This document shows positions 44,159 through 48,505 of a DNA stretch of 64,000 nt, in pieces. The stretch covers positions 310,001-374,000 of the forward strand of contig NZ_OBEA01000003.1 in the NCBI RefSeq assembly GCF_900215355.1, in the 5' to 3' direction. The stretch comes from Pseudooceanicola antarcticus (GTDB taxonomy: Bacteria > Pseudomonadota > Alphaproteobacteria > Rhodobacterales > Rhodobacteraceae). The stretch's first letter is position 1, and every line of letters begins with the position of its first letter. The notes below the pieces were generated by a model. The model was not told the DNA's origin. It ran no database searches and was given only the letters and a program-made list of their open reading frames with translations. The position numbers were made by a program, and so were the translations under genes.

Positions 44159-44527
44159 TTGCGTAATGCGGCATTGATCCTGGGTTTGGTCGGCGGGCTG
44201 ATGGCGCTGGTCGTGGGTTTTGCGGCCTATGGCTATACCGAGGCGATCCGCGCCTGGGGCGAGGTCGACGGCCTCTTCCACCAGGTCGCCAATGTCGAGG
44301 CGATGCGCACGGCGGGCCTGCTGTCTCCGATCCTGGCCATCGCGGGGGCCGGCATGGCGCGCAGCCGGGCGCTCTGGGCGGGCGTCCTGATGCTGGCCTC
44401 GGTCGCGGGCTTCTACATGGGCTTCGGCGTGACCTTCTTCACCCTCTTCCCCATGGCCTTCATCGCGATTGCGGGCCTTCTGGCGCTGGCCGCAGGTCGC
44501 CCGGATGAGCCGGTGCGCCACTTCTGA
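44159..44527 (+). CDS. Hypothetical small membrane protein
   Basis: The 122-residue protein has three or four hydrophobic helices (ALILGLVGGLMALVVGFAAY, AGLLSPILAIAGAGMARSRA, ALWAGVLMLASVAGFYMGFG, FFTLFPMAFIAIAGLLALAA), all joined by short loops. I recognise no family. The start is TTG at 44159, with GGAAGGA nine bases upstream; no ATG is in place. Its last 68 bases overlap the end of the facing doxX gene. It may follow the ArsC-like gene in one transcript (42-base gap). Confidence 0.7.
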   Translation: MRNAALILGLVGGLMALVVGFAAYGYTEAIRAWGEVDGLFHQVANVEAMRTAGLLSPILAIAGAGMARSRALWAGVLMLASVAGFYMGFGVTFFTLFPMAFIAIAGLLALAAGRPDEPVRHF

Positions 44528-45041
44528 AAAGAAGACGATCCAGGGACAGGGCGCCCGCGCCCTGCACCGCCAGCACGGCCAGGGTGAAGACCCAGAAGGC
44601 GCGCTGATCCAGGATCACCCCATCCGGCAGACGGTCGAACCAGGCCCCGAGGGTGGCCGCATGTTCGATGCCGCCGTGACCGTAGAGATCCGTCAGGCTC
44701 TGCACGGCGATGAACCCCACCATGCCAAGGGCGGCCAGCCGCGTCAGCAGACCCAGCACGATGAGCGCCGGCAGGACGAACTCGGCCCAGGTGCCCGCAG
44801 TGACCACGGCCCAGTGGAAGATCCCCAGCTTCGAGACATCGTAGCCAACGGCCTCGAAGGCCTTCGGAAAGATCTGCGCATAGGCGCCGACCGAAGGGGT
44901 CAGGACGCCGAAGATGCCATCGCCCAGCTTGGTCATGGCAGAGGCCCAGAAGTAGGGCAGCAGCACGGCGGCGAAGATGAAACGCGCCAGCAGCGGCAGC
45001 AGCGGCGAGAGCCGCGAGAGGGCTTGGGTCGGGTCGGTCAT
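44460..45041 (-). CDS. DoxX-family membrane protein of the bufferin operon
   Basis: The 193-residue DoxX protein has four helices (LLARFIFAAVLLPYFWASAM, VTAGTWAEFVLPALIVLGLL, RLAALGMVGFIAVQSLTDLY, AFWVFTLAVLAVQGAGALSL). DoxX proteins often accompany MNIO/DUF692 operons; a role in quinone-linked electron transfer or redox support is plausible. It overlaps bufC by four bases, placing it in the bufA-bufB-bufC-doxX operon. The final part overlaps the facing gene by 68 bases. Confidence 0.87.
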   Translation of the reverse strand: MTDPTQALSRLSPLLPLLARFIFAAVLLPYFWASAMTKLGDGIFGVLTPSVGAYAQIFPKAFEAVGYDVSKLGIFHWAVVTAGTWAEFVLPALIVLGLLTRLAALGMVGFIAVQSLTDLYGHGGIEHAATLGAWFDRLPDGVILDQRAFWVFTLAVLAVQGAGALSLDRLLFRSGAPAHPGDLRPAPEGPQSR

Positions 45042-45793
45042 CGGGCGATCTCCACTGCGGTCAGGGCGCTGCCTTGCAGCAGCAGGCCAAGGATGGCGGG
45101 CAGGTCGGCGTCGGGCGCCTCCGCTATTGCGGCCCCCGACGCCTGCTCGGCGCTCTGTCCCTGGCCAAGTGCCTCTATGAAGCCCGCGCCTCCGGCGGGC
45201 AGATGGTGCGGCTCCGGGTCGTAGCCGGGGCGGGTGATCAGGATGTCCTCGGCCTCGGGGCGGGGCGGGGGGCCATCGTGGTGGGCCAGCTGCCAGATCT
45301 GCCAGAGCGGCCAGGACGAGCGCAGCACCCTGAGCGAGGGCGCGAGGCGCAGATGCGCCTGGGCCAGCACCTCGGGCGGCAGCGCCGCCAGCCTGGCGGG
45401 CTCCAGCGGCGTGGCATCGGCGGCGTGGTAGCTTTCGCGCATCGCCAGATCCAGCCGCGCCACATCGGGCAGGTAGCCCAGATGCGCCAGCGGCTGGAAG
45501 CGCTGCAGGAAGGCGGGCAGGGCCTCGCCATAGCGGAACATCAGCGGAGAGCTGGGCGGATGCGCCCTGAGGAAGGGCGCGGCCAGCGCGCGCAGGTTCT
45601 CGTCCCCCAGAAGCGCGCGCAGGGTCGGGAAACCCTCCAGCACGGCCTCGGTCAGGCCAACCGCCACGTTGTTGCGATAGACCGAGAAGCGCCGCCCGGC
45701 CGGGCCGCCATGGCCATCCCGCAGGGTCTCGGGCACCAGGGCCTCGGGGTGCAGCATGGCCTCGCGGAACGCCTGCTGAGAGAGCGGGGTCAT
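45038..45793 (-). CDS. bufC: DUF2063 domain protein, BufC-type partner of the MNIO enzyme
   Basis: The 251-residue protein begins [14 protein letters not shown] and contains the DUF2063 motif [20 protein letters not shown], followed by [20 protein letters not shown] and [20 protein letters not shown]. These proteins are usually labelled putative DNA-binding, but in MNIO operons they act as the RiPP-recognition partner that brings the precursor to the enzyme. The ATG overlaps the bufB stop (ATGA). It ends with a four-base overlap with doxX, so the unit is tightly coupled. Confidence 0.88.
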
Positions 45794-46641
45794 GTCGTCA
45801 CCCTTTGCTGCGCGGCCTCGGCGCGGCGTGCCTCTTCGGCCAACACAGGCCAGTCGGGCACGTCGTTGTCCCATTCGATCAGCAGGGGTTTCGGCCCCGA
45901 GAGCGCCAGCACGTGATCCAGCAGCGCCCAGACCGGATCGGCCACCTCGCGGCCATGGCTGTCGATCAGCAGCGGCCGGCCCGCGTCGTCTTCATCCTCG
46001 TCATGGCCGCCCAGATGGATCTCGCCCACCTTCTCCAGCGGGAAGTCCTGCACGTAGGCGCGCGGGTCCAGACCAAGATTCACCGCCGAGACAAAGACGT
46101 TGTTCACGTCCAGCAACAGCCCGCAGCCGGTGCGCCGGCTGACTTCGCGCAGGAAGTCGGTCTCGGACATCTCGCTTTCGGCAAAGGCCAGGTAGGACGA
46201 GGGGTTTTCCAGCAGCATCGGGCGGCCAAGCGCCTCCTGCACCTGGTCCACGTGGGCCACCACGCGGGCCAGGGTCGTGGAGGTGTAGGGCAGGGGCAGC
46301 AGGTCGTTGAAATAGGCGCTCTCATGGGTCGACCAGGCCAGGTGCTCCGAGAAGCTGGCCGGGTTCAGCCACTGGCAGAGGTGACGCAGGCGGGAAAGGT
46401 GCTCGCTGTCCAGCGCCCCCTCGCCGCCGATCGACAGGCCGACGCCATGCACCGAGATGGGGAAGCGCTCGGCCAGATGGCGCAGCATGGCAATCGGCCG
46501 CCCGCCCTCGCCCATGTAGTTCTCGGCGTGGATCTCCAGCCAGCCTACGGGGGCGGGGTTCTCGAGGATGGACGTGTAGTGCTGCGCCTTGAAGCCGACA
46601 CCGGGTCGCGGCGGCAGGTTGGACGAGGACTGGTCGAACAT
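45790..46641 (-). CDS. bufB: Multinuclear non-heme iron oxidative enzyme (MNIO, DUF692), BufB
   Basis: MNIOs use two or three iron ions to modify Cys side chains in ribosomally made peptides. The 283-residue TIM-barrel protein shows the conserved metal-site motifs: [85 protein letters not shown] and [14 protein letters not shown]. Combined with a BufA-type precursor upstream this is the bufferin group, which makes copper-binding thiooxazole-type peptides. The ATG at 46641 (MFDQSSS) gives the normal length; the longer open frame to 46815 is in the intergenic region. Confidence 0.93.
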
Positions 46642-46753: not shown

Positions 46754-47068
46754 TCAGCCCTCCATCGGCAGGTCACGCTCCAGCGCTTCGAGCGAGCCCA
46801 TGCGGGCGGTGCCATCTGCCATGGCGGGCAGCTCGATCATGGTGCACTTGCCCGCGTCGACGAGGGTCCAGGCGTTGCCCTGGTAGTCGACCTTCGAGGT
46901 GCCGGCACAGGTGGTGCCGGGGCCGGCGGCGCAATCGTTCTCGCCGGCCAGGGACACGCCGAAGCACTTCTCCTTGGCCATGTCATCCGCCACGGCGGTA
47001 GAGGCATGGGCGGTCAGGGCGGCGGCGAAAGCGCCTGCAACGGCGGCGGTCTTGAGAATGGTGGACAT
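46754..47068 (-). CDS. bufA1: Bufferin precursor BufA1 (DUF2282)
   Basis: The 104-residue precursor has a signal peptide ([20 protein letters not shown], cleavage near VADD) and a core with four cysteines: C35, C46, C54 and C75 ([20 protein letters not shown], then [15 protein letters not shown] and GKCTM). [15 protein letters not shown] is the family signature. In characterised bufferins the central Cys residues are modified by the MNIO to bind copper, and the peptide is exported to the periplasm. Here BufB and BufC follow directly. The ATG at 47068 has GGGAGA upstream. A SigF-like promoter lies 57 bases before it (47125-47150). Confidence 0.92.
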
Positions 47069-47124
47069 GGATATCTCCCTAGGTGATCCGATCGGCACGC
47101 CGTCATGGCGTCCGTGCCTTACCC

Positions 47125-47150
47125 TTCGCGGGGCAGAGGGCCTTCGTTAC
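47125..47150 (-). promoter_or_regulatory. ECF (SigF-type) promoter of the bufferin operon
   Basis: On the minus strand, GTAACG (47150-47145) is followed after exactly 16 bases by CGAA (47128-47125). The SigF consensus known from Caulobacter is GTAACC-N16-CGAA. The expected start of transcription is about 50 bases before the bufA1 start. Confidence 0.75.
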
Positions 47151-47197
47151 AGGCCTCACGAACGAGTGAAGAGATTGCAGAAAAATCCCCGCTGGCT

Positions 47198-47223
47198 GTA
47201 ACGTTTCGCTACTCATCCGCGAA
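47198..47223 (+). promoter_or_regulatory. ECF (SigF-type) promoter of the sigma/anti-sigma genes
   Basis: On the plus strand, GTAACG (47198-47203), 16 bases, then CGAA (47220-47223). It is the mirror image of the bufA1 promoter and points to auto-regulation. The -10 lies 11 bases before the likely ATG at 47235, so the mRNA would have a very short leader. Confidence 0.75.
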
Positions 47224-47234
47224 TGGAGAGTGGA

Positions 47235-47867
47235 ATGAACGACCGTAACGCGCTTTGGGGGGACCTCCTTCGCCGTGGCAATGCCGGGGACGGGGCGGCC
47301 TATGCCCGCTTCCTCACGGCGGCGCTGCCGGTGCTGCGCAACATTGCGCGGGCGCGGCTCTCGGGCGGGACGGCGGAAGAGGTCGAGGACGTGGTGCAGG
47401 AGGCGCTGCTGGCGATACATGCCAAGCGCCACACCTGGCGCGAGACCGAGCCGGTGACGCCCTGGCTCTATGCCATCGCCCGCTACAAATGCGCCGATGC
47501 GGCGCGCAGGCGGCGGGCGCGTGGCGGGCATGGCGGGGCGGATGTGCCGATCGAGGACCTGGCCGAGGTCCTGCCCGACGAAGCCCTGGGAGAGATCACC
47601 GCGGCGCGCGACCTGGGCCAATTGCTGGACCGGATAGACACCAGGGCGGCGGACATCGTGCGCTCGGTCGGGGTCGCGGGCGAAAGCGCCGGAGAGGTCG
47701 GCGCCCGCCTCGGGATGACCGAGGGCGCGGTGCGGGTCGCCTATCACCGGGCCATGCAGCGCCTGAAGGCGCTGGCCGACGAGACGAACATGCAACCGGG
47801 CCGAGACCCGGACCGACAGCAACTGACAGGACAAGAGGCGGAAACAGCAGTAGGACGACGAAGATGA
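47235..47867 (+). CDS. sigF: ECF-family RNA polymerase sigma factor, SigF-like
   Basis: The 210-residue protein has sigma region 2 (EEVEDVVQEALLAIHAKRHT, then PVTPWLYAIARYKCADAARR) and region 4 (VGARLGMTEGAVRVAYHRAM). It is followed by an NrsF-type anti-sigma gene with a four-base overlap (ATGA), the arrangement of Caulobacter SigF. It probably directs transcription from the two GTAACG-N16-CGAA sites in the divergent gap, controlling itself and the bufferin operon. The ATG at 47223 overlaps the -10 element and cannot be used from that promoter; 47235 (MNDRNALW) with GGAGAG is preferred. Confidence 0.9.
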   Translation: MNDRNALWGDLLRRGNAGDGAAYARFLTAALPVLRNIARARLSGGTAEEVEDVVQEALLAIHAKRHTWRETEPVTPWLYAIARYKCADAARRRRARGGHGGADVPIEDLAEVLPDEALGEITAARDLGQLLDRIDTRAADIVRSVGVAGESAGEVGARLGMTEGAVRVAYHRAMQRLKALADETNMQPGRDPDRQQLTGQEAETAVGRRR

Positions 47868-48505
47868 AGACCGAAGACCTGATATCCTCGCTGGCGGCAG
47901 ATACCGCTCCCTCCCCCGCGATCGCGGTGGAAACCCGGCTGCCCGGCCTGCTGGTCCTGGGCCTGATGGTCACCGCGCTGAGCTTCGCGCTGGTGCTGGG
48001 GCCGCGCCCGGACCTGGCGACCGCGCTGGCCAACCCCATGGTGCTGGCCAAGACCCTGCTGCCGCTGCTGCTGGCCGCCCTGGCCCTGCCGCTGGTGCTG
48101 CGCGACGCCCGCCCCGGTGCCCGCTACGGCCTGCCCGGCACGTTGATCTGGGCCGTGCCGCTGGCGGTGCTGGGCCTCGTGGTGCTGGCCTTCCTGACCG
48201 TCGATCCCGCCGAGCGTTTGCGCCTCTTCATCGGCCATTCGATCCCGGTCTGCCTGCCCGCGATCACCCTGCTGTCGCTGCCCATGCTGGCGGGCCTGCT
48301 GGTCTCGCTGCGCCGTGGCGCCCCGGTGAACCCCTCCCGCTGCGGCGCGCTGGCGGGGCTGGTGGCCGCAGGCTTCGCCACGGCGATCTATTCGACCTTC
48401 TGCATCGAGGACAGCCCGCTCTTCTACGGCATCTGGTACTCGGCCGGCATCGGCATCGCCACGGGGCTGGGCGCCCTGGCAGGGCGACACCTGCTGAAGT
48501 GGTAG
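47864..48505 (+). CDS. nrsF: Anti-sigma factor NrsF (DUF1109)
   Basis: The 213-residue membrane protein has six hydrophobic helices and a short cytosolic N-terminus (MKTEDLISSLAADTAPSPAI) that should hold the sigma factor. Cys130 (HSIPVCLPAITLLSL) and Cys180 (YSTFCIEDSPLFYG) are near the positions of the two conserved Cys of Caulobacter NrsF (about 131 and 181), which are needed to sense metal stress; a third Cys is at 160. Metal binding at these residues would release the sigma factor. It overlaps the sigma gene by four bases and is followed by a terminator. Confidence 0.88.
   Translation: MKTEDLISSLAADTAPSPAIAVETRLPGLLVLGLMVTALSFALVLGPRPDLATALANPMVLAKTLLPLLLAALALPLVLRDARPGARYGLPGTLIWAVPLAVLGLVVLAFLTVDPAERLRLFIGHSIPVCLPAITLLSLPMLAGLLVSLRRGAPVNPSRCGALAGLVAAGFATAIYSTFCIEDSPLFYGIWYSAGIGIATGLGALAGRHLLKW

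Follow-up and report, generated by a model that had tools for sequence, protein, structure and literature searches.

The window analysed here is a stretch of 64,000 nucleotides from the genome of Pseudooceanicola antarcticus, an organism of the same order as Rhodobacter sphaeroides. It holds a bufferin-1 operon on the minus strand, divergent from a sigF-nrsF pair on the plus strand, with a shared gap between the two units. Comparison with Pfam bears out the protein identities that a preliminary description of this DNA had proposed for bufA, the bufferin operon and the sigma/anti-sigma pair. The bufA gene (46754 to 47068, minus strand) encodes the bufferin-1 precursor, a DUF2282 protein (Pfam, 4.6e-23) with four cysteines at residues 35, 46, 54 and 75, and its start is likely the ATG at 47068 rather than the GTG at 47098. 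The same strand carries bufB (45790 to 46641; start ATG 46641, read in the sequence), which encodes an MNIO enzyme (PF05114, MNIO/MbnB_TglH_ChrH, 2.9e-105) and is the one MNIO gene of the genome, then bufC (45038 to 45793), a DUF2063 protein gene whose start was taken from the translated open reading frame, and last in the operon the gene of a DoxX-family protein (44460 to 45041), these two families being likewise assigned with Pfam. On the plus strand, sigF (47235 to 47867), placed by Pfam and by the alignment of relatives, encodes an ECF16-type sigma factor with the two domains of an ECF-type protein (Sigma70_r2, 2.5e-11; Sigma70_r4, 6.8e-07). The start of nrsF (47864 to 48505, plus strand) overlaps the sigF stop, and its product, a membrane anti-sigma factor, matches the Pfam family 'negative regulator of sigma F' (PF06532, 2e-54) over the full profile length. 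The pair is thus an ECF16 (SigF/NrsF) system divergent from a bufferin-1 operon, and the locus has the make-up of a bufferin-1 cluster, with a Cys-rich DUF2282 precursor, an MNIO, a DUF2063 partner, DoxX and sigma/NrsF, the same composition as given in PMC12452194.

The longest open reading frame of sigF begins at ATG 47223, inside the -10 element of its own promoter. The likely start is ATG 47235, because the longer frame overlaps the -10, GGAG precedes 47235 and the relatives align there. NrsF has cysteines at 130, 160 and 180, two of which lie, by numbering rather than by alignment, near the conserved anti-sigma pair, found at 131/181 in Caulobacter (PMC3511200) and at 129/179 in OsrA (PMC3420878).

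The gap carries one SigF (ECF16)-type promoter per strand: GTAACGAAGGCCCTCTGCCCCGCGAA at 47125 to 47150 on the minus strand for the bufferin operon (-35 GTAACG at 47150-47145, N16, -10 CGAA at 47128-47125) and GTAACGTTTCGCTACTCATCCGCGAA at 47198 to 47223 on the plus strand for sigF-nrsF (-35 GTAACG, N16, -10 CGAA). GTAACG-N16-CGAA had been reported on both strands of the gap, and a pair of such sites had been called unlikely by chance. Sequence and coordinates are exact, the spacer is 16 in both, and these are the only two occurrences in the 64-kb window, against a mean of 0.04 and a largest count of 1 in 100 dinucleotide shuffles of it. The consensus invoked for Caulobacter SigF, GTAACC-N16-CGAA, is indeed in print (PMC3511200). 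Over the whole 4,232,532-bp genome, GTAAC-N17-CGAA occurs five times, versus 13 for a backwards-read control pattern. The remaining three of the five lie inside stop-to-stop open frames of at least 150 aa, which leaves the gap pair as the only plausible strict-consensus sites in the genome, with the caveat that open frames alone do not prove genes when a genome is rich in G+C. Both gap elements are almost certainly SigF promoters. If transcription starts 6 bp after the -10, an offset that we borrowed from the mapped ecfF start of Bradyrhizobium japonicum (PMC3420878), the bufA transcript would begin near 47119 (minus strand) and the sigF transcript near 47229 (plus strand), about 6 nt before ATG 47235, which would leave the sigF mRNA only about 6 nt of leader. 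A G-rich stretch follows CGAA at both promoters (47224-47230 and 47124-47118) and is common in near relatives on both sides.

Aligning the gap in relatives and scanning upstream of their buf genes had been proposed as a check, and by both routes the promoters prove to be conserved. Among 103 NrsF-sigma loci, 66 have GTAAC-N15..17-CGAA on the sigF strand no more than 500 bp ahead of the sigma domain (18/27, 14/17 and 34/59 by neighbourhood class) and 49 have it on the opposite strand (22, 13 and 14 by the same classes); a reversed control pattern gave one site in total over the 103 loci. Four of the loci (L036, L037, L038 and L041) had been fetched by the promoter-pair pattern itself, and without them the counts, made by hand, are 62/99 and 45/99. 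The opposite-strand motif tracks the buf genes: it is found at 35 of the 44 loci with a divergent bufA or bufB (31/40 without the four pattern-fetched loci) versus 14 of the 59 others. Left out before this count were 22 duplicate, repeat or below-cut-off loci and three without an adjacent sigma gene; of the NrsF matches, six that fell short of the cut-off were left out, as were three that passed it but were partial (G667:C34, G379:C197 and G524:C1).

At closer range we aligned 20 gaps, 18 from the window's genus and two from near genera. The sigF-side GTAAC is present in all 20; CGAA is replaced by CGTA in L018 and L024, and the spacer is 15 rather than 16 in L007, L010, L017, L018 and L024. 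On the bufA side, GTAAT replaces GTAAC in L027. The alignment leaves out L013, where bufA, the gap and both promoters are apparently missing: the sigma match, from residue 45, overlaps the bufB match (from residue 48) by about 20 bases, and nrsF is full length. Another genome of the window's genus, G011, had no NrsF match above the cut-off, just weak ones, one of them broken by three stops, which suggests that the SigF/NrsF system may have been lost in that species. A class-wide search with the promoter-pair pattern matched 10 of 385 genomes. Helical phasing of the two promoters was suggested by an offset of 73 bp in close relatives, with a few at 62, 74 and 84 and one at 116, and was rejected on the class-wide offsets of 81, 78, 72, 56, 62, 84, 73, 74, 72 and 71, which are unphased. 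At two loci, L039 and L045, a pair of GTAAC-N17-CGAA sites pointing away from each other separates bufA from a divergently oriented bufB, in a gap that lacks sigF.

The preliminary description predicted from the promoter pair that this sigma factor drives its own gene and the bufferin operon. The conserved promoters and the work on Caulobacter and Sinorhizobium support this prediction, and we infer that SigF drives both operons; the part that concerns its own gene may not hold exclusively, since autoregulation of sigF is only partial in Caulobacter (PMC3511200). In that organism, the promoter of the bufferin operon is backed by microarray, 5' RACE and lacZ fusions, and the activity of the sigF promoter rises on sigF overexpression, with sigF itself not strongly autoregulated (PMC3511200). 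The SigF regulon of Caulobacter is copper-induced (PMC8224329), and TGTAAC/GCGAA promoters have been mapped by 5' RACE in another ECF16 system (PMC8315932). The prediction is therefore sound yet, given the Caulobacter mapping and the Sinorhizobium prediction, already established for the system, and it was incomplete in that the conserved palindrome between the promoters had been missed. The promoter finding itself is ordinary, one more instance of the ECF16-bufferin layout; the novelty is the conserved candidate operator.

The bufA leader has a predicted 5'-proximal stem-loop (47093 to 47114, minus strand, from RNA folding). In a single-sequence fold the window's leader alone is not significant (z -0.34). 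Across 36 bufA leaders, picked by hand from the promoter survey, mean z was -1.72 for the 19 outside the genus (Wilcoxon p 1.9e-6, with loci treated as independent) and -1.32 for the 17 within it, and 13 sequences outside those 36, at opposite-strand sites without an identified bufA, gave a mean of -0.65. For 50 sequences downstream of sigF-strand sites, coding sequence included, the mean was +0.18. The bufA stem-loop recurs with different sequences in other families (35 other loci folded), and no compensatory two-sided pair changes were found among 14 leaders of the family. This hairpin may stabilise the bufferin precursor mRNA.

Between the two promoters lies a conserved palindrome, TCACGAACGAGTGA (TCAC-N6-GTGA; 47156 to 47169), which the alignment and a matrix match mark as a predicted CenR operator. 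In the window its end is 5 bp upstream of the bufA -35, and its centre lies at about -43.5 from the inferred bufA start site and about -66.5 from the inferred sigF start site. The palindrome aligns in all 20 gaps, as TCGC-N6-GTGA in L026. It is separated from the bufA -35 by 5 bp in 17 of the 20, by 6 in one and by 16 in two, and from the sigF -35 by 28 bp in 17, with 27, 29 and 71 in one each. In the two gaps with 16 bp, the added 11 bp amount to roughly one turn of the helix, and the palindrome keeps its usual distance from sigF. Mean pairwise identity is 82% for the palindrome (20 gaps) versus 46% for the adjoining 28-bp segment (17 gaps) and 44% for the spacers of the bufA promoter (19), and the spacing to both promoters is near-fixed although the intervening sequence varies. 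A run of at least four A/T was seen by eye between the palindrome and the sigF -35 in 20/20 aligned gaps. In the window, the A-tract at 47181 to 47185 (plus strand), about 44-48 bp upstream of the inferred sigF start site, could serve as an UP element of the sigF promoter.

The palindrome is not confined to the genus. Outside it, exact TCAC-N6-GTGA occurs in 5 of 32 opposite-strand upstream regions (shuffle mean 0.02) and, at loci without an opposite-strand site, in 10 of 28 sigF-strand upstream regions (shuffle mean 0.02). ACACGAAAGCGTGAG stands on the bufA side of L036 and L038. In the window's own genome, the palindrome 15-mer with at most two mismatches has four matches, among which the gap copy alone is exact; the other three (L047-L049) had no obvious link on inspection. 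The strict form TCACGANNTCGTGA is present in 9/9 genomes of genus g281 and absent from the six searched genomes of the window's genus. In family f171 it lies next to a GNAT-like gene, beside a GCAATAT-ATATTGC-type repeat (L139, L144-L147, L149 and L150), and in L139, L144 and L149 it is located between the GNAT-like gene and a phasin-like gene.

What might bind this element is suggested by published CenR sites. EMSA and promoter point mutants have shown that CenR of Sinorhizobium meliloti recognises AGTCAC-N6-GTGACT, a site centred at -42 that adjoins the srlA -35 on its upstream side (PMC9561847), and 31 ChIP-supported CenR sites are available for R. sphaeroides (PMC9275681). On a matrix built from these 31 sites, whose training sites score 0.6-16.4, the top match in the window is the palindrome (47155-47169, minus strand; score 13.10, rank 1 of 127,972 positions), followed by another site at 12.95; a text search for the palindrome had led to the choice of this matrix, so the ranking was not blind. 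The matrix is also not very selective. Near 12 unrelated ArsR-family loci of the genome it finds two matches, 14.8 and 13.4, above 13.10, and the palindrome's score alone is unexceptional for the genome because equal or higher matches occur elsewhere. At CenR-positive loci outside the genus the match rate is 2.3e-4 per position, the sites themselves included. In the window's genome, the best-scoring orientation of the palindrome is toward bufA, co-directional and 5 bp from the -35; the opposite orientation scores higher in several relatives, as expected of a palindrome. The table of 31 CenR targets in R. sphaeroides contains no ECF16, ECF or bufferin gene or promoter (PMC9275681).

The genome of the window has ten Trans_reg_C matches, one of which, C5:308247, is the CenR ortholog, an OmpR-type protein with Asp56 whose gene is preceded by ACACGAGAGCGTGAG, one base off the R. 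sphaeroides cenR site ACACGAGCGCGTGAG. With this protein as reference, the CenR orthologs of 60 other genomes are 59-99% identical and the next best protein is 42% identical; among the genomes compared here, the ortholog call rests on Asp56, the upstream site and identity to the window's protein. An ortholog is thus present in 61/78 genomes (59-100% identity, the window's own included) and missing in 17: the seven genomes from outside the class, none of which has it, and ten from within. This absence, judged on at most 37 first-look candidates per genome, is strong but not absolute. This comparison left out 21/99 entries, all of loci without a scored site. CenKR has been reported absent from Sphingomonadales and outside the class (PMC9275681). 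G045 and G180, the genomes of the sigF-less gaps L039 and L045, were without a CenR match. Within the window's genus, ACACG-N4-CGTGA stands upstream of cenR in 14/14 parsed loci (4 more were unparsed).

Matches to the CenR matrix co-occur with CenR. Counting as a match any position that passes a 1e-4-per-position threshold within 62 bp upstream of a -35, at 78 loci with a SigF-type promoter, we found a CenR-matrix match at 44/62 loci in CenR-bearing genomes versus 0/16 in those without CenR; the 25/103 loci without GTAAC-N15..17-CGAA within 300 bp were left unscored. The count is 26/44 for CenR-positive loci outside the window's genus, and in terms of genus means the contrast is 13/23 with CenR versus 0/13 without (Fisher p 5e-4, Mann-Whitney p 0.0014). 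Two hundred column-permuted matrices matched on average 2.35, and at most 16, of the same 62 loci for which the real matrix matched 44. The 18/62 loci of CenR-bearing genomes with no match at this threshold are real exceptions. Since the presence of CenR follows clades, a confounder, co-occurrence supports but does not prove the assignment to CenR, and the pattern would equally arise from another regulator that shares CenR's distribution. Taken together with the matrix match, these comparisons of sequence make CenR the probable ligand of the palindrome, its candidate operator.

Such another regulator, for instance an ArsR-type metal sensor or a different global regulator distributed like CenR, is the foremost alternative owner of the palindrome. 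Besides the clade-structured presence of CenR, it can draw on one S. meliloti promoter with the repeat that belongs to an ArsR-family gene, SMc01226 (PMC9561847), and on the strict palindrome that also precedes a phasin-like gene in f171 genomes. We consider it unlikely, as the independent ChIP-derived matrix of R. sphaeroides fits the palindrome, including its position adjoining the -35, and as the cenR genes of the genus itself carry ACACG-N4-CGTGA upstream in every parsed locus; against an ArsR-type owner in particular, TCAC-N6-GTGA was found in 0/12 ArsR-family loci of the genome (about 3.1 kb around each). Another account is that SigF alone controls both operons and that the palindrome, conserved for structural reasons or present by chance, has no relevant ligand. 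The Caulobacter and Sinorhizobium texts do explain expression by the sigma factor (PMC3511200, PMC6180224), and the 18 CenR-positive loci without a match agree with it, but the palindrome's identity (82%, versus 46% and 44% nearby), its near-fixed spacing and its recurrence in other families render it improbable. That CenR binds but represses or insulates, limiting basal or read-through transcription between the promoters, is more doubtful still: CenR is predicted to repress 17/59 units of R. sphaeroides, but the repressing motif sites sit between the -35 and the start site, 28/31 R. sphaeroides sites lie directly upstream of a -35 and are read as activating (PMC9275681), and the palindrome is upstream of both -35 elements in the gap.

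We therefore favour, with a probability of about 0.6, a composite reading in which SigF drives both divergent operons and CenR, an envelope-stress response regulator, co-regulates them via the candidate site. It builds on the two promoters and their conservation, and on the palindrome with its CenR-site match, near-fixed spacing and co-occurrence with cenR, all of which are observed here. The gap would be a composite bidirectional stress-control region. By extension from the relatives, on which we rely for recognition by SigF, for its release from NrsF and for induction by metals, NrsF would hold SigF at the membrane and a periplasmic metal or redox signal would free it; SigF-RNA polymerase would fire the minus promoter, for bufA-bufB-bufC-doxX, and the plus promoter, for sigF-nrsF, a positive feedback capped by nrsF. 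The binding of CenR at the gap, and its sign, are our own proposal: OmpR-type CenR would bind the single site at 47156-47169 between the promoters, as a class II activator at bufA, with a centre at about -43.5 that adjoins the -35, and would act on sigF from about -66.5. Given CenR, activation is likelier than repression. The outcome would be that the envelope-stress system CenKR is coupled to the bufferin response.

A wider proposal, which we put forward tentatively, is that CenR, an essential regulator of envelope stress, directly controls the ECF16 (SigF/NrsF) regulon, bufferin operons among it, in those Alphaproteobacteria that possess CenR. A single dimer, placed at near-fixed distances between the two divergent ECF promoters, would contact polymerase at both; full copper-buffering output would need a periplasmic metal or redox signal, which frees SigF, as well as a signal of envelope state through CenK-CenR; and the wiring would have been lost or never present in genomes without CenR, where the ECF promoters would stand alone. 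Among the matches listed for the open literature and its main texts, with subscription papers and supplements outside this scope, there is no published link from CenR to ECF16 or bufferin promoters. Nor, among those matches, does CenR appear in papers that join bufferin, NrsF, ECF16 or DUF2282. The main texts of PMC10746171 and PMC11389396 hold no sigma or bufferin-related words, and of two papers that do hold CenR/CenKR, PMC10470753 mentions copper once and PMC9275681 mentions neither copper nor sigF nor msrP. Bufferins, peptides that chelate copper, were described as a family only recently, and in the texts examined their control is tied to the SigF/NrsF pair alone. If CenR acts here too, the response to copper would be linked to the pathway in charge of envelope integrity and cell division; there would be a concrete operator to mutate, defined sets of genomes with and without the wiring, and a natural example of an ECF sigma factor helped at divergent promoters by a two-component regulator. 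Should the CenR reading prove wrong, the region would still add a clean new case to the known ECF16 layout.

Three ECF16 systems bear comparison with this locus. In Caulobacter crescentus, SigF-NrsF (CC3253-CC3252) and CC3254-CC3257 comprise the same families, DUF2282, DUF692/MNIO, DUF2063, DoxX, ECF sigma and NrsF, and GTAACC-N16-CGAA lies upstream of both units, as here, with C at position 6 of the -35 where the window has G (PMC3511200). Caulobacter possesses, in addition, the YedY-like CC2748 and another operon of the DUF2282-DUF692-DUF2063 type (PMC3511200), whereas the window's genome has one MNIO gene and no further plausible strict-consensus site; the text examined of the Caulobacter account makes no mention of a palindrome (PMC3511200). 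The RpoE7-EcfR7 pair of S. meliloti, also ECF16, is divergent from the orthologous cluster SMb20527-SMb20530 with one predicted promoter per unit, as in the window; no activating signal was found among those tried, and the main text does not use the word palindrome (PMC6180224). EcfF-OsrA of B. japonicum is an autoregulated ECF16 sigma/anti-sigma operon whose motif has a spacer of N14-15, with no divergent bufferin operon in the text examined, and the mapped ecfF start site, 6 bp after the -10, overlaps the annotated start codon, an arrangement that we propose for the window as well (PMC3420878). As for CenR, most of the genes that it is known to control serve the envelope, division or stress responses (PMC9275681, PMC9561847). 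A point against the CenR reading is that the R. sphaeroides consensus is given in print as TGA-N8-TGA, a direct repeat (PMC9275681), whereas the element that matches in the window is a palindrome. The CenR sites of R. sphaeroides and of S. meliloti srlA share T(C/G)AC-N6-GTGA directly upstream of the -35, just as in the window (PMC9275681, PMC9561847).
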